Below are positions 15,259 through 46,929 of a DNA stretch of 64,000 bases, piece by piece; the first letter of the stretch is position 1; every line of letters starts with the position of its first letter. This stretch comes from a virus, in IMG/VR virus record IMGVR_UViG_3300028559_000034, positions 1-64,000 of that record; one strand, given 5' to 3'. A program made the translations under genes and the position numbers. The notes beneath the pieces were generated by a model. It had not been told where the DNA came from and searched no databases. It saw nothing but the letters and a program-made list of their open reading frames with translations.

Positions 15259-17130
15259 TTAGAAGGTAGTGTGTTCAGATCTATATTTATCGTAACGATT
15301 TGCTAACTCAATTAAAAATTTATTTCTAACTATATCTTCGTTTTTAAATTCAAATATGTATAAATCTGCCATATCTTTTGTCATTCCTATAAAATCAATA
15401 TAACCAGAATCTTTTTTTCTAACATCATATTGAGATGTATCACCCATCATGACAGCTTTAGAATCTTTACCGAGACGTGTTGCCCATAACATTAGTTGCT
15501 TTATTGAGGCATTCTGACAGTTATGAACTAATATATTTTCAACAAAATAATTATGATTACCATCAACCTCTATATTATATACATAATCCGTTTCGGAATT
15601 CTCTATATTTACTATATCAGTTGTTGATAGGTTTTCATTATATGATATTTTATATAAATTAATATCAAATTTATTAATATTACCGTTCATCTTGTAGGAC
15701 ATTGATGGAGGTATATAATTTGAGATTATACTAAACATTTTTAAAGAATTTATTCTATTTAAACATAATATAATGCCCTTTGATGTTTTGTAAATATTAC
15801 TATCTAAATTGAATTTATTTTTCAATATTGATGATAATATACTCACCTCTTCATGACTCATGGAATTGGTTGAGAATGTTACGCTTCCGCTTGATTTTGA
15901 AACGGATCCATCATCCATATACCAAATAGCTAAGGTTCTTTCTGTGAACCATCTATTAACTCCGCTACTTATAAATTTTTTTGACTCTTTGTAAATGGAG
16001 TTATAAAACTCATTTGATATATTTATTGATTTTGTTTGAAACCCACATTGTGCCTCTCCAGTATATCCGGATTTTAAAAAGTTTCTATATGATGATATTC
16101 CTTCAAAAATAGACTTTTTAAAATTCATATAATCATATTGTTTAATAGAGTGATTCGTTGATAACCTATATGACTTTTTAACTTGTTTATTTGATAATAA
16201 TGATGAATCACCTAAACACATTCCTAAAATTATATCATATGAGTCATTTGTAATAATTGTTGAATTATTTGTACCCATTTCTTTATATCTACAAATACTA
16301 TCACCCACTTTTAAATTATTAACCTCTGACCATATAATTTCACCATCTTTAAAAACAGAAAATGGATGATTTTTTGTTGTTTTTATTGGTTTTAATTTAT
16401 CTTTTGTGTATATTTTAGTTATATTTTTTATTCCATTTTCAAAAACACCAGTTACTTTTTTATTTTCCAAAATTCTCATTTCTTCATTCCAACTAGAAAC
16501 ATATACGTCTTTTCCAGATTTAAACATATTAACAATATCTTTTATTCGAATGTAGTTAAAAGAACCCTTAGTACCGTGTTTTGTGACAACTCTCGTATCA
16601 CCTGTAAAGCACTCGTCCAATAACATTACACAATTATCATAAGTAGATCCTCTCATATAAGCGAGTGGTTCAAAAACTATAATCTCCGTAGCAAATAACC
16701 AATCAATTGTTGGTTTATCTAATATTTTACAAAAATTAGTATAATATGATTGTTTATATGGATCAGTTTTTTCAGAAATATTTCCGGGTAAAAGTCCAAT
16801 TTGCTCGCCACTTTCCTGTATTGGCTTAGTAATAATAATTTTATCTACTTTTTTATCAGCTAAAAGGGCTAAGGCAGTATAACAACTTGTAAATGTTTTA
16901 GAAGTACCAGCCGGACCGTGTACAACTGTTAATGTATTATTTCTTATTCCTTTATATAAATCATTTTGTTTTTCGGTTAATCTAACATCATTACTTTGGA
17001 ATGATTCCTTACTTAGAGAGATGGCCTTTTTTTGCCTTTTTTCTAATTCATGATTACGAACCTCATCTTGTATTTCTTTTAGAGCTTGCGTTTTAAGTGA
17101 TACTTTATTTCTTTGAGATTGTCTTGCCAT
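15259..17130 (-). CDS. phoH: PhoH-like P-loop ATPase interrupted by an intein
   Basis: A 623-residue precursor. The extein (residues 1-173 plus 538-623, 259 residues) is a PhoH-family ATPase: Walker A HGPAGTSKT at 71-79, IITKPIQESGEQIGLLPG after it, and Walker B VMLLDE at 168-173. The family's D-E-x-Q-N motif is split by the intein, becoming DE/CQNAS. PhoH proteins are common in large phages; an RNA/DNA helicase-like role is suggested for the family but is not settled. Splicing would join Glu173 to Cys538. A TATATA box lies upstream (about 17150). Confidence 0.9.
   Translation of the reverse strand: MARQSQRNKVSLKTQALKEIQDEVRNHELEKRQKKAISLSKESFQSNDVRLTEKQNDLYKGIRNNTLTVVHGPAGTSKTFTSCYTALALLADKKVDKIIITKPIQESGEQIGLLPGNISEKTDPYKQSYYTNFCKILDKPTIDWLFATEIIVFEPLAYMRGSTYDNCVMLLDECFTGDTRVVTKHGTKGSFNYIRIKDIVNMFKSGKDVYVSSWNEEMRILENKKVTGVFENGIKNITKIYTKDKLKPIKTTKNHPFSVFKDGEIIWSEVNNLKVGDSICRYKEMGTNNSTIITNDSYDIILGMCLGDSSLLSNKQVKKSYRLSTNHSIKQYDYMNFKKSIFEGISSYRNFLKSGYTGEAQCGFQTKSINISNEFYNSIYKESKKFISSGVNRWFTERTLAIWYMDDGSVSKSSGSVTFSTNSMSHEEVSILSSILKNKFNLDSNIYKTSKGIILCLNRINSLKMFSIISNYIPPSMSYKMNGNINKFDINLYKISYNENLSTTDIVNIENSETDYVYNIEVDGNHNYFVENILVHNCQNASIKQLMLWATRLGKDSKAVMMGDTSQYDVRKKDSGYIDFIGMTKDMADLYIFEFKNEDIVRNKFLIELANRYDKYRSEHTTF
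15520..16611 (-). mobile_element. LAGLIDADG intein inside PhoH
   Basis: A 364-residue in-frame insertion with complete splicing motifs: it begins at Cys174 (CFTGDTRVVT, block A), has TTKNHPF (block B, catalytic TxxH), and ends FVENILVHN (blocks F and G, His-Asn) followed by Cys+1. The two dodecapeptides of a LAGLIDADG homing endonuclease are visible as ILGMCLGDSSL and LAIWYMDDGSV, each with an acidic residue kept, so the endonuclease may be active. It is inserted right after the Walker B DE of PhoH, a highly conserved site as is usual for inteins. Confidence 0.93.
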
Positions 17131-18152: not shown

Positions 18153-18365
18153 ATGAATTTTTTACTTGAGTTTAAGAATTATTATAAAGAAGGTGACATT
18201 GTTCTAATAGAATACTGGTATAACGGAATGATAACGTGTGTAATGATAACTAACATAACTGGTAGAAAATACAAAGTTACTCATAATATTCCTCAATCGA
18301 AAATATTTAATGCTCCTGATGAAAATATAAAGTATTCTGATATTATAGATCATTTTAATCAATAG
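18153..18365 (+). CDS. small hypothetical protein, SH3-like beta barrel possible
   Basis: A 70-residue protein starting MNFLLEFKNYYKEGDIVLIEY. This start is chosen because it follows TATATA-CTAT directly; an earlier in-frame Met would lie inside the divergent gene. The strand pattern (GDIVLIEYWYNGMITCVMI, then GRKYKVTH) looks like a small SH3-like barrel. Its 3' end overlaps the convergent peptidase gene by 11 bases. Confidence 0.6.
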   Translation: MNFLLEFKNYYKEGDIVLIEYWYNGMITCVMITNITGRKYKVTHNIPQSKIFNAPDENIKYSDIIDHFNQ

Positions 18366-19527
18366 AATATAAAGAATTAATCATTACTTCATAAACATCT
18401 CTATCATTTGGATCATTTAAATCTAAATATTGTTCTTTTATAATTTCAATTTCTTCTCTAGAAATTGAAGTATTTAAAAACTTTTCTTTAATAGGTTCAT
18501 ACTTTGAAGTATAATCTATTCTTTCTTCTACTTCAAATCCTTTAACAACATTATTTCTAACATCTAATAATTCTGATCCATTGGCATAATAGATTTTATT
18601 AGTTTTTTTGTTACCACGTCTAGTTTTTTGTCTTTGATAATCATCATCATAATTATCATAATTATCATATTGATTGAAATTGGAATTGTTCCAAGTCCTA
18701 TTTTTACTACTATTCCAAGATGTTGTTGTTGTTCTTCCACCATATTTAGATTTATTCCAATCATCCCACTTAGATTCTGTTTTGGTCATATCACGTCTAG
18801 TAGGAAGATTTTCCCAGTCGATGAAAAGACAAGCATTTGATAAATCTATAAGATGTTTAATATCTTGGTGTTCATTATGAGTATGTTCTAAATAATATCC
18901 AACAGAAATATTAGTACATTCTGGAATTACTGATGTAAACTCAGCAGAATCTGTGTAAACTCCAGTATCATCTATTTTATAATTAAGTCCTCTTTTATTA
19001 AGTTGATTTGATAACTCTCTTCCAAATTCATCAGAACAAGTTCTTGTAAAAGATTGATGTGTAATAACTGATGTTGTACCTCTACGATCAAAAGAAATTA
19101 TTCTATCATATAGACCTTTAACCTCTACGAATTTTGCGGCAAGACCTGAACCAATACAACCTACTTCTTCACCAATAAAGAAATAATAAAGACCTGGTAT
19201 ATTATGTTTCATCATCCATAACATAATAGTAACACCAGCTTTATCATCAGCACCAAGTATTGATGTTTTGTCAGTTCTAATAATATTTCCGTCAATGAAA
19301 TGTTTTACTTTAGTTTGATTCTTACAAGCAGTATCAAAATGGGATGCAAATATAGTTCTACTGTTACCTATTTTTAGAAAATAATTACCCTGACTATCCT
19401 TATTAAGTGATTTTGGTAATACTCCAATATCTTGCATTTCTACAACAAAATCATCTTCATATCCGTATGGATAAGTCTTAGATGTAAGCTTAAGGAATGT
19501 TGATTTTATAAATGTTTCTTTATTCAT
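18355..19527 (-). CDS. M20/peptidase T-like zinc metallopeptidase (copy 1)
   Basis: A 390-residue predicted zinc aminopeptidase. Metal and catalytic residues of the M20/M28/M42 clan are in order: H-x-D in ASHFDTA, GADDKAG (bridging Asp), FIGEEVGCIGSG (catalytic Glu-Glu), SFDRRG (Asp) and LEHTHNEHQ (His). The C-terminal ~120 residues are an Asn/Asp/Tyr/Arg-rich low-complexity tail followed by a helical end. It is a clear paralogue of the gene at 40798-42156. A Bacteroidetes-type promoter lies just upstream (19536-19567). Peptide turnover, possibly of tagged or degraded proteins, is inferred. Confidence 0.85.
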   Translation of the reverse strand: MNKETFIKSTFLKLTSKTYPYGYEDDFVVEMQDIGVLPKSLNKDSQGNYFLKIGNSRTIFASHFDTACKNQTKVKHFIDGNIIRTDKTSILGADDKAGVTIMLWMMKHNIPGLYYFFIGEEVGCIGSGLAAKFVEVKGLYDRIISFDRRGTTSVITHQSFTRTCSDEFGRELSNQLNKRGLNYKIDDTGVYTDSAEFTSVIPECTNISVGYYLEHTHNEHQDIKHLIDLSNACLFIDWENLPTRRDMTKTESKWDDWNKSKYGGRTTTTSWNSSKNRTWNNSNFNQYDNYDNYDDDYQRQKTRRGNKKTNKIYYANGSELLDVRNNVVKGFEVEERIDYTSKYEPIKEKFLNTSISREEIEIIKEQYLDLNDPNDRDVYEVMINSLYSID

Positions 19528-22981: not shown

Positions 22982-23743
22982 TTACTCAGAATCAGAGGAA
23001 GAACTTACTTTTCTATCCATCAACATAGGAAGAACTTCTTTTTCGTAATAAGAATCAAAACCCTCAAGCATCGATGAAATACTTGTTCCGGTATCAAGAC
23101 CAATAACTTCATCAATCAATCCAAATTTTAATGCTTCATCAGAATTATACCAACGGTCACGACGAGAGAACTCCAACACTTCATCAAATGTTTTACCACA
23201 ATTCTTTGCTAACATTTTGAAAAGAACATAATTATATTTTTCGGCCTCCATTTGATTTATACGAGTGTCTTGAACATTACCTTGATTTCCGTGACTAAGT
23301 TGGTGTGTCATAACTTTTGAAAAAATCAAAGAAGATCTTTTACCTTTAGTTCCAGAACTAAGTAATACTGAACCCATACTTGCACACATCCCAATATTGA
23401 TTGTTGCAACGTCAGAGCTTATATAATTCATTAGATCAACAATTCCAAGTCCACAAAGAACTGAACCACCTGGCGAGTTAATATAAAGTGAAATATCTCT
23501 CTTCTCAACAGAATCAAGAAAAAGCAATTGTGCTTGAACAATATCAGACATATGTTGGTTTACTGGACCAGATACCCAAATTATTCTATCTTTAAGCAAC
23601 CTACTAAAAACATCCATTTGTGTAACATGCATTTGTCTTTCTTCGAGAATATAAGGTGTTAATGAGTTTTCAAACCTATCAAGGTTAAGTGATGATATCC
23701 CTTCACTAAGGGCAAATTTTTTAAATTCTGTTCCTATATTCAT
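22982..23743 (-). CDS. clpP: ClpP-type serine protease
   Basis: A 253-residue ClpP peptidase subunit. The catalytic triad is visible: Ser122 in GMCASMGS, His147 in VMTHQLS, Asp196 in SRRDRWYNSDEA. The oxyanion strand YINSPGGSV (87-95) is also conserved. The N-terminus is ~40 residues longer than the mature region of bacterial ClpP and could be a propeptide or docking part. No ClpX/ClpA-like unfoldase was seen in the window, so the phage subunit would have to use a host or distant phage ATPase. Degradation of host or tmRNA-tagged proteins, or capsid maturation as in some phages, are possible roles. Confidence 0.93.
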   Translation of the reverse strand: MNIGTEFKKFALSEGISSLNLDRFENSLTPYILEERQMHVTQMDVFSRLLKDRIIWVSGPVNQHMSDIVQAQLLFLDSVEKRDISLYINSPGGSVLCGLGIVDLMNYISSDVATINIGMCASMGSVLLSSGTKGKRSSLIFSKVMTHQLSHGNQGNVQDTRINQMEAEKYNYVLFKMLAKNCGKTFDEVLEFSRRDRWYNSDEALKFGLIDEVIGLDTGTSISSMLEGFDSYYEKEVLPMLMDRKVSSSSDSE

Positions 23744-33578: not shown

Positions 33579-34256
33579 TTAATTTAGTAATTCAATTTTA
33601 CCTCGACTAAAATCTTTAAAAGAACATTGTTTACCAGTTTCGTGATCTACAACTAAATCTTCTTTTATTCTATAAGATCTTTTCTTATTTGATCTAGAAC
33701 CCTTACCAACCTGATCTAATCGATTTTGATAAGATTTCTTATTCCATTTTTCTTCTTCAATAGATCTTAATTTCTCTTCAAGTCTTTGAAAAGCCAAATC
33801 TTCATTCTTTTTTTGATCTCTAGTATCTTGACATTTAATTTGAATACCAGTTGGCTTATGTGTTAATATAACACAACTAGATACTTTATTAACATTTTGG
33901 CCACCAGCACCACTACTTCGAGTATATTGTTTAGTGACTTCATTACGATTAAAATTATATTCTAATTTATCGCTTGGATCAATTATCGCAACTGTAATTA
34001 TTGAAGTTTGTGTTCTACCATTTTTTTCAGTTGGTGGAATACGTAGCCAACGATGTGGTCCACTTTCATTTTTGAAGAATGTTTTAACTTTTTTACCAGT
34101 AATTCAGATAGATGAGAATCCATCTCTATTAATAACTTCATAATTAAAGTTATTAACTCGTGATGTTTTGAGATAAATATCTCTTAAATCTTCTACAAGA
34201 AGTTTTGAATCTTGTCCGCCTTCAGCGGCTCTTATTTCTATAATAATTTGCTCCAT
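33579..34256 (-). CDS. RF1-type class I peptide release factor with an in-frame UGA
   Basis: A single frame of 225 codons runs from ATG 34254-34256 to the stop at 33579, interrupted only by TGA at codon 51 (34104-34106). Before it: [20 protein letters not shown], the start of the release-factor core. After it: [30 protein letters not shown], and [12 protein letters not shown] with the catalytic GGQ at 118-120. The recognition tripeptide is P-P-T (74-76), the P-x-T type of RF1 (UAG/UAA), not S-P-F of RF2. The N-terminal helical domain is missing, as in short release-factor relatives. Readthrough, mutation and sequencing error are all open. Host-type promoter at 34353. Confidence 0.8.
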
Positions 34257-34352
34257 GACTTTATTTTTTAATTTTTAGACAATAAATTGTTTGTAAGTGA
34301 TTTTTTACTCACTTTACGCTAATAGTTATGTAGTCATAGTTTCATAATAATA

Positions 34353-39937: not shown

Positions 39938-39965
39938 GAAACACCAACCTTTTGGTTGGTGTTTC
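39938..39965. terminator. hairpin terminator of the tmRNA (and of the convergent gene)
   Basis: A 12-bp G+C-containing stem (GAAACACCAACC pairing with GGTTGGTGTTTC) with a TTTT loop. It starts 6 bases past the tmRNA 3' end on the minus strand and 4 bases past the plus-strand stop at 39933. Confidence 0.9.
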
Positions 39966-39971
39966 GTTTAG

Positions 39972-40331
39972 TGGAGGCGCCGACGATGAAATCGGGTCTT
40001 CCTCAGTTAAAAACAATTAATCATTCACAAGCTTAGAAAGTTTTTCTTTAACTTACAAAATAGAAAGTTGTTTCGACTCAAAAACACTCTAACAAAAAAC
40101 TATCATTATTTACTGTTATGATTCAGTATGAATTTTATGAAAGTATCAATTAAGCTACTTCAAGCTCATTCACAACGAGCAAATTGTTTTGTAGAGCAGC
40201 TACTAAATCTTCACTGGTTCCTACTTCTGTAACGTTTCCGTTTACGATTTTGATAATTTATTTTAATCGGACTTTATCAAACCGATGCTTGCTTAATCAC
40301 CTTTACTCTGCGAATCAATTCACTCGCCCCC
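39972..40331 (-). ncRNA. ssrA: tmRNA (transfer-messenger RNA)
   Basis: About 360 nt. The 5' end GGGGGCG (40325-40331) pairs with CGCCTCC near the 3' end (39973-39979) to form a 7-bp acceptor stem with discriminator A; CCA is not encoded. Near the 5' end, TTGATTCGCAG matches the conserved GGATTCGAC region, and AAGCATCGG...CCGAT forms the first pseudoknot stem. The 3' domain has the conserved CTAAGCTTGTGAATGA and a T-arm-like CCGAT-TTCATC-GTCGG. The mRNA-like part, after AATC, reads GTA AAC GGA AAC and stays open for 31 codons to TAA (40150-40245), ending NELEVA. It rescues stalled ribosomes and tags their products. Normal bacterial tags are mostly near 10 residues. Confidence 0.93.
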
Positions 40332-40341
40332 ATTTATTTTA

Positions 40342-40372
40342 CAAATATATATATAATATTTTAAATATCAAA
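40342..40372 (-). promoter_or_regulatory. Bacteroidetes-type promoter for tmRNA
   Basis: On the minus strand: TTTG at 40369-40372, a 19-base spacer, TATATTTG at 40342-40349, then 10 bases to the predicted 5' G of the tmRNA at 40331. An excellent match to TTTG-N19-TAnnTTTG with correct spacing to the RNA start. Confidence 0.8.
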
Positions 40373-40381
40373 AAAGTTTAT

Positions 40382-40798
40382 TTAAAATGGAGCTTTATTT
40401 TTATTCTCATCGTAATAAAAAGAAAAAGATAAAATAGGAATATACTCTTTACTCTCATATAATTCAACTTCCAATTGATATTGTGGTAAAATATCTTTTT
40501 TCATCTTATTAATAACAATATCAAAAGTTTTCACAATATTTTTGAATTTTTCTTTTCTTTGAAGAAAAACATATACTGATATATCTAAGTCAGATCTTTC
40601 TACACTTGTTGTTATTCCATTACCATTTAAAAAAGTCCTAATTAAATAACAAAGATGATCCTCGACATCACCATCTTCTTCATAATTAACATCTTCTTCT
40701 TCATTAGGTAAATCATTATCTTCATAAGTTTCATCATCAAGATATTCAAAGTGTTCCTTAATTTTTATATTCTCTATTTTTATGTTTTTTACAATCAT
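40382..40798 (-). CDS. acidic hypothetical protein next to tmRNA
   Basis: A 138-residue protein (MIVKNIKIENIKIKEHFEYL). Residues ~20-47 are very acidic (DDETYEDNDLPNEEEDVNYE), then an alpha/beta domain with YVFLQRKEKFKNIVKTFD. The start overlaps the peptidase stop by one base (TAATG), so it is co-translated with the peptidase and lies 50 bases before the tmRNA. No family recognised; the location makes a link to the rescue cluster possible. Confidence 0.62.
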   Translation of the reverse strand: MIVKNIKIENIKIKEHFEYLDDETYEDNDLPNEEEDVNYEEDGDVEDHLCYLIRTFLNGNGITTSVERSDLDISVYVFLQRKEKFKNIVKTFDIVINKMKKDILPQYQLEVELYESKEYIPILSFSFYYDENKNKAPF

Positions 40799-42156
40799 TA
40801 TTTTAATTCTATTTTTATAAATTGATCTTCAAAATAAACATCAGGATCTATTTTATATTTATCTAATAGTAAATTCATCATTTGTAAGTCCTCATAAACA
40901 GTTAAAACATCCGGATCATCCACCTCTATTTTTATATAAGCAGTTCCATACTCACTAACCATTTTAGTCTCTAAAGTAAATGCTGCTGCTTTAAAATCTG
41001 ATATAAATTTACCATATTTTCTAAGAACTTCTTCGTCAAATCCAACTTTTTTAACCGTTGGTAAGTTTTCCCAATCTACTTTTAAACAAGCCTCTGCTAA
41101 TCTTATTAAATATGATATATTTTGACGTTCATCAACTGTATGTTCAGAAAAATAACCAACAGATATATTTGTACATTCCGGAATCTTATCTATAAAAGAA
41201 GCAGAATCAGTATAAACGCCAGTTGGATCTAAAGATATTTTTAATCCAGATTTATTTAATTCTTTAGCAAGAGCAGTTGCAAATTCGTTAGAACAACATT
41301 GTCTACCTAATTGACTTGTAATAACCGAAAAGTAATTTCTTCTATCAAATGATACACATCTTTTAACATTTTTTAAATGCTCAATATTTTCAAATATATC
41401 AGCAACTTTGTTAGATCCAATACCTCCTCTCTCTTCACCAATAAAGAAATAGTAAATTCCTGGTATATTATATTCCATCATATATAACATGACAGCAACA
41501 CCAGACTTATCATCAGCTCCCAAAATTGAAGTACTATCAGTAACAAATATTTCATCACCATCAACAATAGTACTATATAAAACAACATTACTTTGTTTTC
41601 TGTCTGCTGTATCTAAATGAGATGTAAACATTGTTTCTGATTTTCCAATTATTTTATAATAATTACCAAATTCGTCTTTTTGTAATCCACTAGGTAGAAA
41701 TTTAACTACTTCTTCCTCATGTCCATGAGGATATGTTTTAGTAGTAAATGATATAAAAGTAGATCTTACATCTTTAGGATTAAAAGTAAATTTTGGTATT
41801 TCAACTTTTTTAAATGTAGGTTTATCAATTTTATTAACTGGTCTCCTTCCATTTTTTAAATTATTATAACTTTGACCAAAATCAAATATCTGTTTTCTAT
41901 CAAAGAAGCTAGAACCATCATCACCAGTGAAAAAATATTTAATATAATTACCAATCTTCATTGATTGAATTTTACCATTAATAGTAACATCAAAATTCCA
42001 ATCAAACTTAGAAACATCTACTAATTCTATTTTTAATTCATTTCTTAACGAATAATCTCCTTCCATTCTCATAAGAGCCTCAGCTATAGGACCTCCTATA
42101 TCATCAATTATATCATATAATTTACCAGTAAATCTTATATAAATTGTTTTATTCAT
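40798..42156 (-). CDS. M20/peptidase T-like zinc metallopeptidase (copy 2)
   Basis: A 452-residue paralogue of the peptidase at 18355-19527. After an N-terminal ~110-residue extension, the catalytic domain shows FTSHLDTAD (H-x-D), SILGADDKSG, FFIGEERGGIGSN (Glu-Glu), SFDRRN and FSEHTVDERQ (His). Both copies share TKTYPxGxE and ECTNISVGY. The extension begins MNKTIYIRFTGKLYD and is found only in this copy; the other has a low-complexity tail instead. It sits between the NFACT-R gene and the tmRNA, suggesting peptide turnover in ribosome rescue, which is inference. Confidence 0.86.
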   Translation of the reverse strand: MNKTIYIRFTGKLYDIIDDIGGPIAEALMRMEGDYSLRNELKIELVDVSKFDWNFDVTINGKIQSMKIGNYIKYFFTGDDGSSFFDRKQIFDFGQSYNNLKNGRRPVNKIDKPTFKKVEIPKFTFNPKDVRSTFISFTTKTYPHGHEEEVVKFLPSGLQKDEFGNYYKIIGKSETMFTSHLDTADRKQSNVVLYSTIVDGDEIFVTDSTSILGADDKSGVAVMLYMMEYNIPGIYYFFIGEERGGIGSNKVADIFENIEHLKNVKRCVSFDRRNYFSVITSQLGRQCCSNEFATALAKELNKSGLKISLDPTGVYTDSASFIDKIPECTNISVGYFSEHTVDERQNISYLIRLAEACLKVDWENLPTVKKVGFDEEVLRKYGKFISDFKAAAFTLETKMVSEYGTAYIKIEVDDPDVLTVYEDLQMMNLLLDKYKIDPDVYFEDQFIKIELK

Positions 42157-42179
42157 AATTTATTTAGTTTTTATATATA

Positions 42180-42578
42180 TTAATTATCAACTATAACTTC
42201 TTGAGAATTTTTATAATCAACAATTACTTGACCGGGTTTCATATCCGATGTTTTTTTAACAAACTTAGCTTTACAATAGACTATTTTAGATTTAACACCC
42301 TTTGGTACCTTTGAATTCTTAGCCGCTAATTTAGAAACTTCTTTTATTAATTCTGGCGAAGGCAACTTATCTTTAACTCTTATAATTATATGACTGCCTG
42401 GAACACCAGCAGCATGAAACCATAAATCATCTTCATTAGCCATTTTTGTTGTTAAATAATCATTAGATAAAGCATCTTTTCCTATAATAATAGTAAAATC
42501 ATCTATAATTAAAGTTTTTAAGTTTGGAAATTTATCAGATTTAGACTCATAAAAATTACAATATCTTTTTATTTTCAT
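42180..42578 (-). CDS. stand-alone NFACT-R (DUF814) domain protein
   Basis: A 132-residue protein matching the NFACT-R domain of RqcH/Rqc2/Tae2: FTIIIGKDALSNDYLTTKMA, then DDLWFHAAGVPGSHIIIRV (D-x-W-F-H-A and P-G-S-H), LAAKNSKVPKG, and VYCKAKFVKK ... MKPGQVIVDY. In the full-length family this domain is part of the ribosome quality-control factor that binds stalled large subunits and directs tail addition. Here the NFACT-N, HhH and coiled-coil parts are absent, as in stand-alone family members. The N-terminus MKIKRYCNFYESKS fits the capsid-targeting-like motif. TATATA-CTTT precedes the ATG. It leads a minus-strand cluster ending in the tmRNA. Confidence 0.87.
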   Translation of the reverse strand: MKIKRYCNFYESKSDKFPNLKTLIIDDFTIIIGKDALSNDYLTTKMANEDDLWFHAAGVPGSHIIIRVKDKLPSPELIKEVSKLAAKNSKVPKGVKSKIVYCKAKFVKKTSDMKPGQVIVDYKNSQEVIVDN

Positions 42579-43051: not shown

Positions 43052-44776
43052 TTAGTTTAAATATTGAGCTGTATCAGTAACAACAATTGTCATATATTGT
43101 TTCTCTGGGAAGAAACCAACATCTGCGATTGCATATCTTGAACGTAATAACATTCTTGGAGCAAAAGTAGCTTCAGAAATTACACTGATAGACTGAGCCA
43201 TCAAGTAAGGAATGAAGATGATACCTGGTTGATCTGGGTTATTCTTTCTACCGATTACAATTCTGTTATCGTTATATTTCATATAAGGATCAACATAGAT
43301 AGAAATATCACCAATTTGACCAACTGGATATAATTGACCTTGACCAGTAATTTTAGATTTAAATGGATTGATTGTGTATCCTGCGATATCCATAAGAGAT
43401 GCTGCAAGACCTCCATTAGTTACAGCGAACTGAGCTGGACCAACACGACCTTCTGTTGCGATAAAGTTAGAAGCGTGAACCATCTTAGTGATCAACTTAC
43501 GTTGAACAGCGTGAGTAGTTTCACCTCCTACAGATGATACGTATGAAGTATTTAAGTCAAATATTGTTGATGCTGTTGTACCCACAGTAGTTACACCTAA
43601 TCCTGTATTAATAGGAGATGTATTTCTGTTTAAAGATCCTAGTGAGAAAATTTTATCAACAATTTGTCTTGAAATTGTTTGAGACAATTCGTTAACAAGG
43701 ATAGATTCCATTTTTTGAACGATATCCATACCAGTATTAGCTTTAATATCTTCAATTTCTGTTCTTCTAAGTGCAGTTGATACTTCGATAGTACCTACAG
43801 CAACTGTTTTAGAAGAAACTTTAGGTCCGATAATACCTGAATAGCTATTATCATCAGCTTGACGACTCATTGGATAATCACCAGATGAAGTTGAAGAAGC
43901 CCAATTTGCAGAGAAACCTGGAAGGTGATCTTCAAGAGCTGATACTAAGTCAATAGTTACAGTTCCAGTAAGTACTTGAGTACCAATGTTTGTAATTTGA
44001 CTAGTCATAGATGCAGTTGCATTAAATGTATTTAATTGAGCTTCGTAAGAAAGTGAACTCAAAGCTGAATAACCACCTGAACCAAAAGCATTTACTTGTC
44101 TGTAAGCTTTGAACATTGGATAACCATCAACACGAGAGAAACCTAAGAATTCAACAATACCATTTTTATTAGTTGGCTCTGATGTATAAAATGCACCAGC
44201 TGCAGGAGCTCCTGATATAGAAGAAGATGTTGCGATTGTAGCAAAAACTCTACCTCCTCTAAGACCACCTGATGTAAGTGTAAATCCTGAAGTTGTTGTA
44301 GCGTAAGTTGATACAGTACCAATAGCTGTTGATAAGTTAGTAGCACCAGTGATTTTAAATACTTGTGGTCTAGCGTTAGCATCAGTTGTGTTTACGTCAT
44401 CATATTGAAAATCAATATAAAGTAAATCAATTTTTGGACCTGGACTAGGTTTAACAGCAACAAGGTCAAGACCAATTGTTTGAGCTGCGATTTTCATAGC
44501 TACTGGAAGAAGGTTTTGTCCTAAATCTCCAGAACCGATTGTACCACCCCATGAGCTACCATTTAATGTACCAGCTGGTGTATTACCACCAATAACTGGA
44601 TTTAAAACAGCACCCATACCAGCTGTAGTTGCGTTAGCGTAAGCATTTTCGTTAATTGAGTGGAATTCAGCATATTCTGACATCCATTCTACTCTATCAC
44701 CGGTAACACCCATGTTTTCCAAAACTGGAGACCATTTCTTAACCGCTTTTTGTTTGTCTATTCTAATGTGTGACAT
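43052..44776 (-). CDS. major capsid protein (gp23-like)
   Basis: A 574-residue HK97-fold capsid protein of the T4 gp23 type. The N-terminus has the gp23 pattern (AVKKWSPVLENMG, then a helical leader) with a predicted prohead-protease site after SINE at residue 43, followed by the Gly/Ala-rich NAYANATTAGMG. LLPVAMKIAAQTIGLDLVAV matches the gp23 region after the cleavage site. It lies downstream of portal and protease/scaffold genes in T4 order. Codon use is less AT-biased than in neighbours, consistent with high expression. Followed by a strong terminator. Confidence 0.92.
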   Translation of the reverse strand: MSHIRIDKQKAVKKWSPVLENMGVTGDRVEWMSEYAEFHSINENAYANATTAGMGAVLNPVIGGNTPAGTLNGSSWGGTIGSGDLGQNLLPVAMKIAAQTIGLDLVAVKPSPGPKIDLLYIDFQYDDVNTTDANARPQVFKITGATNLSTAIGTVSTYATTTSGFTLTSGGLRGGRVFATIATSSSISGAPAAGAFYTSEPTNKNGIVEFLGFSRVDGYPMFKAYRQVNAFGSGGYSALSSLSYEAQLNTFNATASMTSQITNIGTQVLTGTVTIDLVSALEDHLPGFSANWASSTSSGDYPMSRQADDNSYSGIIGPKVSSKTVAVGTIEVSTALRRTEIEDIKANTGMDIVQKMESILVNELSQTISRQIVDKIFSLGSLNRNTSPINTGLGVTTVGTTASTIFDLNTSYVSSVGGETTHAVQRKLITKMVHASNFIATEGRVGPAQFAVTNGGLAASLMDIAGYTINPFKSKITGQGQLYPVGQIGDISIYVDPYMKYNDNRIVIGRKNNPDQPGIIFIPYLMAQSISVISEATFAPRMLLRSRYAIADVGFFPEKQYMTIVVTDTAQYLN

Positions 44777-44811: not shown

Positions 44812-46929
44812 TTATAGATTTTTAAATCTTTCCATTATTGCATTTAATTCTTTTTCAGATATTTTGTCTTCTTGAATTAAGCTTTCATGTGATACTAATT
44901 TCTTAGTAACTGATTCATTTTTTCTGAGATTTCTAGTCATCCAGAAGTGTTCAACTTGTGATTCTGTCGTTAATACTTCAGATGGATAAAGTCTAGCTTG
45001 TGATAAGATAGATTTTCTATTATTCTCATTTAATTGGTTCCAGATTGGCTTGATATTCTCAGGCATTAATCTGATTACTCTTTCTTCAAGAGATTCATTC
45101 TTTGAACTTAAAGCCTCAGATATTAATCCTAACACCTCTTTTGGTGTAAAGAAACTTTTTTCGTTTATGTAAAGTGTAACAGTTTCTTGATCTTCATTTG
45201 TTAATGAATAAAAACTGTCAACCTGAGCTTTATTTAAGAATTTTAAGAAATGTAGATCGGATGTTTCAACAGCTTTACGTTTTTTAGCTTCTTCGATCAA
45301 TTTATCAATAGATTTAGATAATTCAGTATCTGAATTACCCTCATATTCATTATTTTCTTCTTCACTATTTTCATCATTGTATTCTTCTTCACTATCTTCA
45401 TCATTATTGAAATCTTCTAATTTAGGAGTTTCATCAGCTGAAGGAGATTCTTCCGAATCATTCCAATTTTGTTCCTCTTGTTCTTCTTGTTCTTCTTCTT
45501 CATAAGAATCAAAACCAGCTGATTTAAGAGTAGGTAACATTTCTTCATTATCACCATCGGATTCGAATAATTTATTACCATTTAATTTTTCAACTATTAA
45601 TCCTTGATAAGAAATTGACTTATCAAGATTTTCAGCAACATATTCTGAGTAAGCGATATTATCATCAAGATTCTCAGCGATATATTCTGAATAAGCAATA
45701 TTTCCTTCAACATGCTCAGATAAATATTCTGAATAAGCAATTGAATTATCAAGGTGTTCTGCTAAATATTCTGAATAAGAAATATTCTTATCAAGATTTT
45801 CAGCGATATATTCTGAATAAGCGATATTCTTATCAAGATTTTCAGCGATATATTCTGAATAAGCGATATTCTTATCAAGATTTTCAGCGATATATTCTGA
45901 ATAAGAAATATTTTTGTCTAAGTTTTCAGCAATATATTCTGAATAAGAAATATTTCTATCAAGATTTTCAGCTAAGTATTCAGAATATTCAATATTCTTA
46001 TCAAGATTTTCAGCTACATATTCACTATAATTTATTACTTTTTCAAGATTTTCAGCTAAATAATCATTATGTTTAATTAATTTTTCAGCTGTTGTTTTTA
46101 ATGAAGTATTTTCATTAACCATTACTTGTACTTTTTCAGCTAAATAATCTAAATATTTAACTATTTGAGAATTTGTATCATTTAGATTTTCATAATACTC
46201 TAATAATTGTTCTAATTTTTTAGGATTTAAATTACCTTTATTAAGTGCAGTACGAACTTCTTTCTTTGTAGAAGCTAACTCATTAATAAGATACTTAGAA
46301 TAATCAGTTAATTGTTTTTTTGTAACTATATCATTAGTGTTCATATTGAATAGATCATTTATTTTAGACTCATCGGACATTTCATATATCCTAAAGTTAG
46401 CTTTATTTGAGAATCCGAAAGATTCATTAAGAACTTTGACACTCATTTTTGCAGATGCAAAACCTGGATCTGCTACAATATCATATGTAAAAAGCTTTTT
46501 AAGTGTTACTGTACCATCAGATTCAGTAATACCAGCTGCTCTCGAAGAGACAAATATTGGACAACCATCATTAACTAAAGCTTTCGCTTCTTTACCCCAA
46601 TGTGTACTAAGTAATCTAATTTCACCTTCGACTCTGTTATTTTCTTTAATATAGTTTGCCTTTGTAATTATGTGTGATGCTCTTGATAAAGATGTATCAA
46701 AAACATCTGGATGATCAAATTCTCCATAGACTACGCCCATGTTTTGAATTCTTTCATTCATTTCTTGTAAACAAGGAAGAAATTTATTAGCAGTATATAC
46801 TCTTTCATTTCGATTTTTAATATCAAATTCTGTGAATATACCACCTAAAATATGTTGATCCTGTCCTCTTGAACTTTCTGATAAATTCAAAGAATTAGTT
46901 GAGTTTTCAACAATAAGAATTGGCTTCAT
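44812..46929 (-). CDS. prohead protease fused to a scaffold domain (gp21/gp22-like)
   Basis: A 705-residue protein. Residues ~20-175 are a prohead protease: GGIFTEFDIKNRNERVY, VYGEFDHPD (His73), ASHIITKANY, FVSSRAAG (Ser128/129) and YDIVADPGFA. Residues ~180-300 are helical. Residues ~296-440 contain ten 14-residue repeats. Residues ~465-545 are a very acidic Glu/Asp/Asn segment, and the C-terminal ~160 residues are helical. In T4 protease and scaffold are separate genes; here one gene seems to encode both. Each repeat contains an (I/L)-A-E or similar motif like the T4 gp21 cleavage consensus. Confidence 0.88.
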   Translation of the reverse strand: MKPILIVENSTNSLNLSESSRGQDQHILGGIFTEFDIKNRNERVYTANKFLPCLQEMNERIQNMGVVYGEFDHPDVFDTSLSRASHIITKANYIKENNRVEGEIRLLSTHWGKEAKALVNDGCPIFVSSRAAGITESDGTVTLKKLFTYDIVADPGFASAKMSVKVLNESFGFSNKANFRIYEMSDESKINDLFNMNTNDIVTKKQLTDYSKYLINELASTKKEVRTALNKGNLNPKKLEQLLEYYENLNDTNSQIVKYLDYLAEKVQVMVNENTSLKTTAEKLIKHNDYLAENLEKVINYSEYVAENLDKNIEYSEYLAENLDRNISYSEYIAENLDKNISYSEYIAENLDKNIAYSEYIAENLDKNIAYSEYIAENLDKNISYSEYLAEHLDNSIAYSEYLSEHVEGNIAYSEYIAENLDDNIAYSEYVAENLDKSISYQGLIVEKLNGNKLFESDGDNEEMLPTLKSAGFDSYEEEEQEEQEEQNWNDSEESPSADETPKLEDFNNDEDSEEEYNDENSEEENNEYEGNSDTELSKSIDKLIEEAKKRKAVETSDLHFLKFLNKAQVDSFYSLTNEDQETVTLYINEKSFFTPKEVLGLISEALSSKNESLEERVIRLMPENIKPIWNQLNENNRKSILSQARLYPSEVLTTESQVEHFWMTRNLRKNESVTKKLVSHESLIQEDKISEKELNAIMERFKNL
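45610..46040 (-). repeat. 42-bp tandem coding repeats in the scaffold region
   Basis: About ten units of 42 bp encode variants of NISYSEYIAENLDK. Two heptads per unit give an ideal coiled-coil period. Central units are nearly identical at the DNA level, so copy number may vary by recombination. Confidence 0.93.

Follow-up and report, generated by a model that had tools for sequence, protein, structure and literature searches.

A giant-phage locus that joins a standalone NFACT-R protein, a PepT-like peptidase and an acidic protein to a tmRNA with a long conserved tag

Transfer-messenger RNA (tmRNA) genes have been described in mycobacteriophages, Bacillus phage G and marine Melnitz-like phages (PMC4131195, PMC9004378), tmRNA together with SmpB has been reported in huge phages (PMC7162821), and overall about 2% of phages carry a tmRNA (402/18,146; PMC9004378). 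A phage tmRNA as such is therefore not new (PMC7162821, PMC9004378). Here we analyze a tmRNA in the first 64,000 nucleotides (hereafter the window) of IMG/VR virus record IMGVR_UViG_3300028559_000034, where it follows genes for a standalone NFACT-R protein, a metallopeptidase and an acidic protein. Like bacterial and huge-phage tmRNA–SmpB systems (RF00023, PMC7162821), the RNA is one-piece and has an acceptor stem, a G3.U70 pair and a tag reading frame with a stop codon; unlike them, its family encodes a 29-32-residue tag with a conserved core, mostly has GGCAGUA-like T-loops and mostly escapes ARAGORN. It shares residence in a phage genome with the mycobacteriophage, phage G and Melnitz-like tmRNAs, but it is one-piece, always lies near NFACT-R and is accompanied in relatives by an unlinked phage SmpB, whereas the tmRNA of Melnitz is in two pieces and has a glutamine riboswitch.

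The protein parts also have described counterparts. RqcH and NEMF share the NFACT-R domain but also have NFACT-N, HhH, coiled-coil and M domains; the 132-residue phage protein lacks these and has an N-terminal extension resembling a capsid-targeting sequence. CCDC25 and a homologue in Ca. Uabimicrobium amorphum consist of a single NFACT-R domain, as the phage protein does; unlike these, it is encoded by a phage, shares an operon with a peptidase and neighbors a tmRNA. Internal proteins IPI-IPIII and Alt of phage T4 have in common with the present family a short N-terminus of the form MK..[YF]..[FIL].E and a T4-like portal, major capsid protein (MCP) and gp21-type protease, but the predicted cargo here includes an NFACT-R protein. 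Full-text literature searches found no paper on phage NFACT-R, and a standalone phage NFACT-R family tied to tmRNA, the long conserved tag, the aberrant T-loop and the probable head targeting look new.

All four elements and a terminator lie on the minus strand, where a preliminary description of this DNA had placed them, in the order NFACT-R, peptidase, acidic protein, tmRNA, terminator, with the three protein genes tightly spaced:

42180-42578, minus strand: standalone NFACT-R protein, 132 residues (Pfam PF05670)
40798-42156, minus strand: PepT/M20B-like co-catalytic metallopeptidase, 452 residues (phrog_4191, PepT profile and fold)
40382-40798, minus strand: acidic protein, 138 residues
40342-40349, minus strand: -7 promoter element TATATTTG of Bacteroidota type (TAnnTTTG), located 18 nt 5′ of G1 of the tmRNA
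39969-40331, minus strand: one-piece tmRNA, G1 at 40331, 3′ end ACTA, no encoded CCA (RF00023, covariation)
40150-40245, minus strand: tag reading frame from GUA resume codon to UAA, 31 residues, VNGNVTEVGTSEDLVAALQNNLLVVNELEVA (alignment)
39938-39965, minus strand: intrinsic terminator 3′ of the tmRNA, 12-bp stem and T-rich tail

We give about an even chance to the reading that these are two neighboring units of one giant-phage translation take-over kit. Co-occurrence supports it. Seventy-seven loci reduce to 52 distinct NFACT-R sequences, and wherever one of these is followed by 4 kb or more of DNA, tmRNA is present (41/41), including in the huge phages LR756502 (642 kb) and LR745206 (635 kb); the gene pairing noticed in the window thus recurs in every relative in which it could be checked. 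NFACT-R and peptidase genes are adjacent in 50/51 loci and peptidase and acidic genes in 48/48 (median gap 2 nt), and judged by this gene order the three form a near-invariant operon.

The tmRNA of the window is missed by standard searches, with no ARAGORN call and no Rfam match at the gathering score. Scanned with RF00023, the region alone gives 27.4 bits (cut-off 47) over the full model (1-374, E 3e-9); two close relatives (L002/L003) reach 38-39 bits, also under the curated cut-off, more distant huge phages score 48-95 bits, and ARAGORN does call the copies of L031 and L017. Since the window copy had been missed, a family profile was built from eight tmRNA copies, and with nhmmer it matches essentially every related locus. 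Forty-seven intact copies were aligned for covariation and tag analysis. Their acceptor stem has 7/7 pairs in 47/47 copies, with compensatory changes at positions 4-6, the T-stem covaries strongly, and G3.U70 and A73, which are alanine identity elements, are invariant (47/47). Most T-loops are GGCAGUA-like rather than canonical UUCRANN, which is probably why ARAGORN fails; canonical-type loops occur only in a few lineages (UUCGUUA, UUCGAGU), and that of the window copy is shortened. Taken alone the window tmRNA is weak, but the full-length RF00023 alignment, the 47 covarying homologues and selection on the tag make it secure as a prediction, and the earlier call, sub-threshold in its own RF00023 check, is confirmed by the scores of relatives, the ARAGORN calls and covariation. 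A degenerate, functionless remnant from a host, or a product of chance or artefact, would fit the low Rfam score, the missing ARAGORN call and the shortened T-loop, but is hardly credible for an RNA that dozens of diverged phages have kept, with paired changes in its stems and a constrained coding frame.

A TAnnTTTG element, the Bacteroidota -7 consensus, precedes the tmRNA in 35/47 copies (about 2.4 expected in shuffles), which suggests Bacteroidota as the host phylum. With a tmRNA that has its own promoter, the four elements need not share one transcript. Separately, a group I intron (96 bits) directly follows the tmRNA of the 735-kb phage (L120:1272-1844, minus strand; LR756501.1 near 718388) and appears to break the 3′ part of the tmRNA in LR756501.1.

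The tag frame is open in 47/47 copies, with 29-32 codons, a stop codon at its end and indels that are all in frame. Codon position 3 is the most variable (mean entropy 0.84, vs. 0.60 and 0.55 for the others), and on this coding pattern the tag is under selection at the protein level. The window tag follows a family pattern that is roughly VNGN(V/T)NEVGTREDLVAALQNN...(E/D)L..(V/A). Published tags span 8-35 residues (PMC8012679), most commonly 10 (PMC11915505), and a length of about 30 is unusual, not unheard of. Family tags end in VA, TV, LV or similar, whereas the E. coli tag ends in ALAA. Among other huge phages, LR756500 has a short tag (GNNAEMRMAA, by ARAGORN), Lak-B5 apparently has NDDEIEFRMAA, and other distant ones have different long tags. 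Mimicry of a phage protein was considered and set aside: a tag profile run against six-frame translations of the window, of roughly 400 kb from LR756502 and of four relatives gave no other match, so the tag is not visibly borrowed from a phage protein. The constraint on the tag also bears on whether the RNA acts as a decoy, by titrating SmpB of the host or by blocking trans-translation there. Such a role has a precedent in the suggestion made for a fragment in mycobacteriophage DS6A (PMC4131195), and the aberrant T-loop of most copies would suit it; we nevertheless consider it very improbable, given a tag frame kept and constrained in 47/47 copies, invariant G3.U70 and A73, and SmpB in larger relatives.

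The 132-residue protein passes the Pfam check for NFACT-R (PF05670, E 1e-16; residues 26-120). Its best match by profile among solved structures is Bacillus subtilis RqcH 444-553 (8e-22), with CCDC25 another solved relative (3e-9), and there is no PHROG family match to the window protein. Homologues occur in 75 viral loci, and identity to the cellular homologue in Ca. Uabimicrobium amorphum (L102) is 42%. The link to RqcH-type proteins drawn in the preliminary description holds for the homologous domain only: NFACT-N, HhH and coiled coil, the RqcH domains that recruit tRNA-Ala, are absent, and the phage protein is therefore not an RqcH. RqcH is present in 404/1,956 FCB-group genomes (PMC11633108); most Bacteroidota may lack it, in which case the phage protein need not compete with a host RqcH. 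Some database matches were rejected. INPHARED Listeria and Enterococcus “phage” matches look like bacterial contamination, the Enterococcus one being a full-length 578-residue RqcH, and a Helicobacter match is an annotated FbpA N-terminus. NFACT-R is matched by two neighboring frames in one locus (L093:7290-9334). The first holds a complete domain behind a long N-terminal extension; the second matches only near its C-terminus and may be a remnant that an inserted gene has cut.

Overlooked in the preliminary description were capsid-targeting-like N-termini, which point to virion delivery of proteins. The head genes upstream are T4-like (Gp23 5e-27, portal 3e-55, S77 protease 1e-4):

43052-44776, minus strand: T4 Gp23-family major capsid protein (PF07068 5e-27), whose gene immediately precedes the NFACT-R operon
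44812-46929, minus strand: T4 gp21/S77-like prohead protease (PF03420 1e-4, phrog_207 2e-29), in one protein with a scaffold-like region in which Y[IL]AE sites recur

Residues 1-12 of the NFACT-R protein (MKIKRYCNFYES) resemble the T4 capsid-targeting sequence, and the N-terminal motif is conserved in the family; NFACT-R and acidic homologues have common N-termini such as MKIKRYCNFYE|S and MKLKKYKKLFE|E, and T4 IPII and IPIII begin MKTYQEFIAEA. For packaging in T4, the first ten residues are enough, and processing depends on residues 8 and 10 (PMC9026906; see also PMC7697877). The pattern ^M[KR].{0,5}[FY].{1,3}[FLI].E occurs at the start of 47/484 genes (about 10%) of LR756502 (642 kb), vs. 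2.2 in shuffled N-termini (maximum 8 in 500), a 20-fold enrichment, and after 5/1,629 internal methionines of the same genome; in the window, related patterns occur in 12-13/57 genes vs. 1.6-1.9 expected. As a class signal the motif appears strong, without being proof for any single protein, and from it we infer that the NFACT-R and acidic proteins are internal head proteins ejected with the DNA. Across the window and LR756502 (L139-L158), such N-termini, of the forms MK[HY][LI]KxYKIFES and MKIKxYxxFIxES, offer a possible catalogue of injected proteins.

A head location would also suit a different role, in which NFACT-R is a nucleic-acid-binding internal protein for packing or protecting the genome, like the DNA-binding human CCDC25. 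Its N-terminus and position behind the MCP gene agree with this, as do the profile match to CCDC25 and the acidic partner's tail, whose PF end recalls bacterial SSB. We think this role unlikely, if not strongly so, with the RqcH match far ahead of that to CCDC25 and tmRNA co-occurrence invariant.

The M20-like peptidase of the preliminary description was rightly named and is more exactly PepT/M20B-like. It belongs to PHROG 4191 (“peptidase”, 3e-67), and its closest solved relatives are PepT tripeptidases by profile (2e-11) and by fold (Foldseek, 3e-11). H180, D182, D215, E241, E242, D271 and H339 are invariant in 20 homologues, and the PepT/M20B co-catalytic metal ligands H, D, D, E, E, D, H are all present. 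The structural model (predicted local distance difference test score 85) has an N-terminal domain of about 125 residues and a C-terminal helix-strand-strand-helix-strand-strand domain. A second PepT-like paralogue lies elsewhere in the window (18355-19527, minus strand), and six loci (L032, L037, L042, L045, L047, L048) have an extra PepT-like copy between the acidic gene and the tmRNA. The acidic protein has a folded core (46-129, predicted model) and an acidic tail with a PF end resembling the protein-binding tail of bacterial SSB; a C-terminal P[FWY] (PF/PW/PY) is found in 19/21 homologues, and neither profile nor fold gave a significant PDB match. Peptidase and acidic protein are fused in one lineage (L031, L039/L040).

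Partner functions are encoded by related phages. SmpB was found in eight larger relatives, namely contigs of 476, 385 and 174 kb and phages of 642, 635, 636, 735 and 544 kb, and a complete phage trans-translation system therefore exists. ClpP is present in 9/15 records examined and a release factor in 5/8, this window included. The two window genes, mentioned in the preliminary description, are both real:

22982-23743, minus strand: ClpP-like protease (PF00574 4e-54)
33579-34274, minus strand: peptide chain release factor, frame broken by an in-frame TGA at 34104-34106 (PF00472 2e-31)

The ClpP-like protease is a possible end point for tagged proteins. In the release-factor gene, the in-frame TGA is at the same position in three diverged phages, the window, L160 and L161 (GFSSI[TGA]ITG, GYASI[TGA]LQG and GFASI[TGA]IEG). 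TGA otherwise acts as an ordinary stop, and its shared position here suggests that the phage release factor undergoes programmed read-through and autoregulation. Wholesale UGA recoding was considered and is unlikely, since TGA ends 43/369 LR756502 genes with short read-on.

Under the take-over reading, the NFACT-R/peptidase/acidic operon would be one unit, belonging to the region of T4-like head genes. Capsid-targeting-like N-termini would probably bring NFACT-R and the acidic protein into the prohead, where the prohead protease would cut them after [FIL]-x-E, and both would leave the head together with the DNA. Once inside the host, as infection begins, NFACT-R could then bind large ribosomal subunits or tRNA, with the PepT-like peptidase finishing short peptides to amino acids. 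The separately promoted tmRNA would be the second unit, alanine-charged and acting later than the ejected proteins. Working with phage SmpB where present and otherwise with that of the host, it would rescue stalled ribosomes and add the conserved phage tag of about 30 residues, whose small or aliphatic C-terminus would suit degradation of the tagged chains by ClpXP, perhaps with phage ClpP. Part identities, conservation, coding selection on the tag, co-occurrence, SmpB in larger relatives and motif enrichment are sequence observations, from which packaging, ribosome binding, degradation and cooperation between the units are predicted. The boldest version, in which a head-packaged ribosome binder derived from ribosome quality control (RQC) and a peptide recycler are injected first and the phage's own trans-translation with its private tag follows, in two timed steps, is tentative and rather unlikely.

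Several observations count against a single kit. Some concern the parts already described, namely the noncanonical T-loops and the RqcH domains missing from the phage protein; SmpB, moreover, was not found in the 68.5-kb window record, a fragment. Others concern head targeting: the window acidic protein and peptidase have no clear capsid-targeting motif, some window proteins deviate from the [IL]-x-E processing site (NFACT-R has F-Y-E), the pattern also matches two T4 proteins not annotated as internal, and the motif was spotted by eye before it was tested. The remainder concern linkage. The usual gene order is portal, prohead protease, MCP, NFACT-R, peptidase, acidic protein, tmRNA, NADAR, Dam, and functional linkage is not needed for a head block to keep its order as a whole. 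Acidic gene and tmRNA are adjacent in only 30/46 loci, and the tmRNA-NADAR-Dam block is inverted in L036, L050/51, L065 and L091, while remaining no more than about 7 kb away. In the MCP tree L035/L036 stand apart from the other three inverted lineages, so one or two inversion events are possible. LR756504, LR756501, LR756500 and Lak-B5 have tmRNA without NFACT-R, with SmpB in all of these except LR756500; L017/G016, a further candidate, is uninformative, as its sequence begins inside the peptidase gene. Trans-translation is thus older and more widespread in these huge phages, and NFACT-R is an addition in one clade.

These linkage data fit an account by shared ancestry that we hold to be nearly as likely as the take-over kit, in which an ordinary phage trans-translation system and an unrelated operon stay together since the clade keeps its head gene order. 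Portal through Dam is conserved as a whole, with protease and MCP as tightly joined as NFACT-R and peptidase, the inversions cut between acidic gene and tmRNA, and the tmRNA has its own promoter and is found without NFACT-R. On the other side, NFACT-R was never found without tmRNA where testable, the stretch from NFACT-R to tmRNA is kept in three loci (L081, L093, L094) whose neighborhood has lost the head genes, and an accidental tmRNA neighbor is less likely for an RQC domain. The single dedicated module proposed at the outset is accordingly upheld only in part, by co-occurrence and by SmpB, ClpP and release factor in larger relatives, and loosened by the promoter, the inversions and the tmRNAs that lack an NFACT-R partner.

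For the question of why phages carry tmRNA, this clade of at least dozens of members offers one accompanied by SmpB, ClpP and a release factor as well as an RQC domain, and a long, strongly selected tag open to direct assay. A packaged NFACT-R would be the first virion-delivered RQC-type protein known to us, and the N-terminal motif would allow injected proteins of giant phages to be predicted from sequence only. If the two-step version of the take-over kit is true, the virus would take over from its host both ribosome rescue and the breakdown of stalled proteins. Elsewhere in the window, a PhoH-like protein (15259-17130, minus strand) has an internal segment that matches a LAGLIDADG homing endonuclease and is probably an intein.

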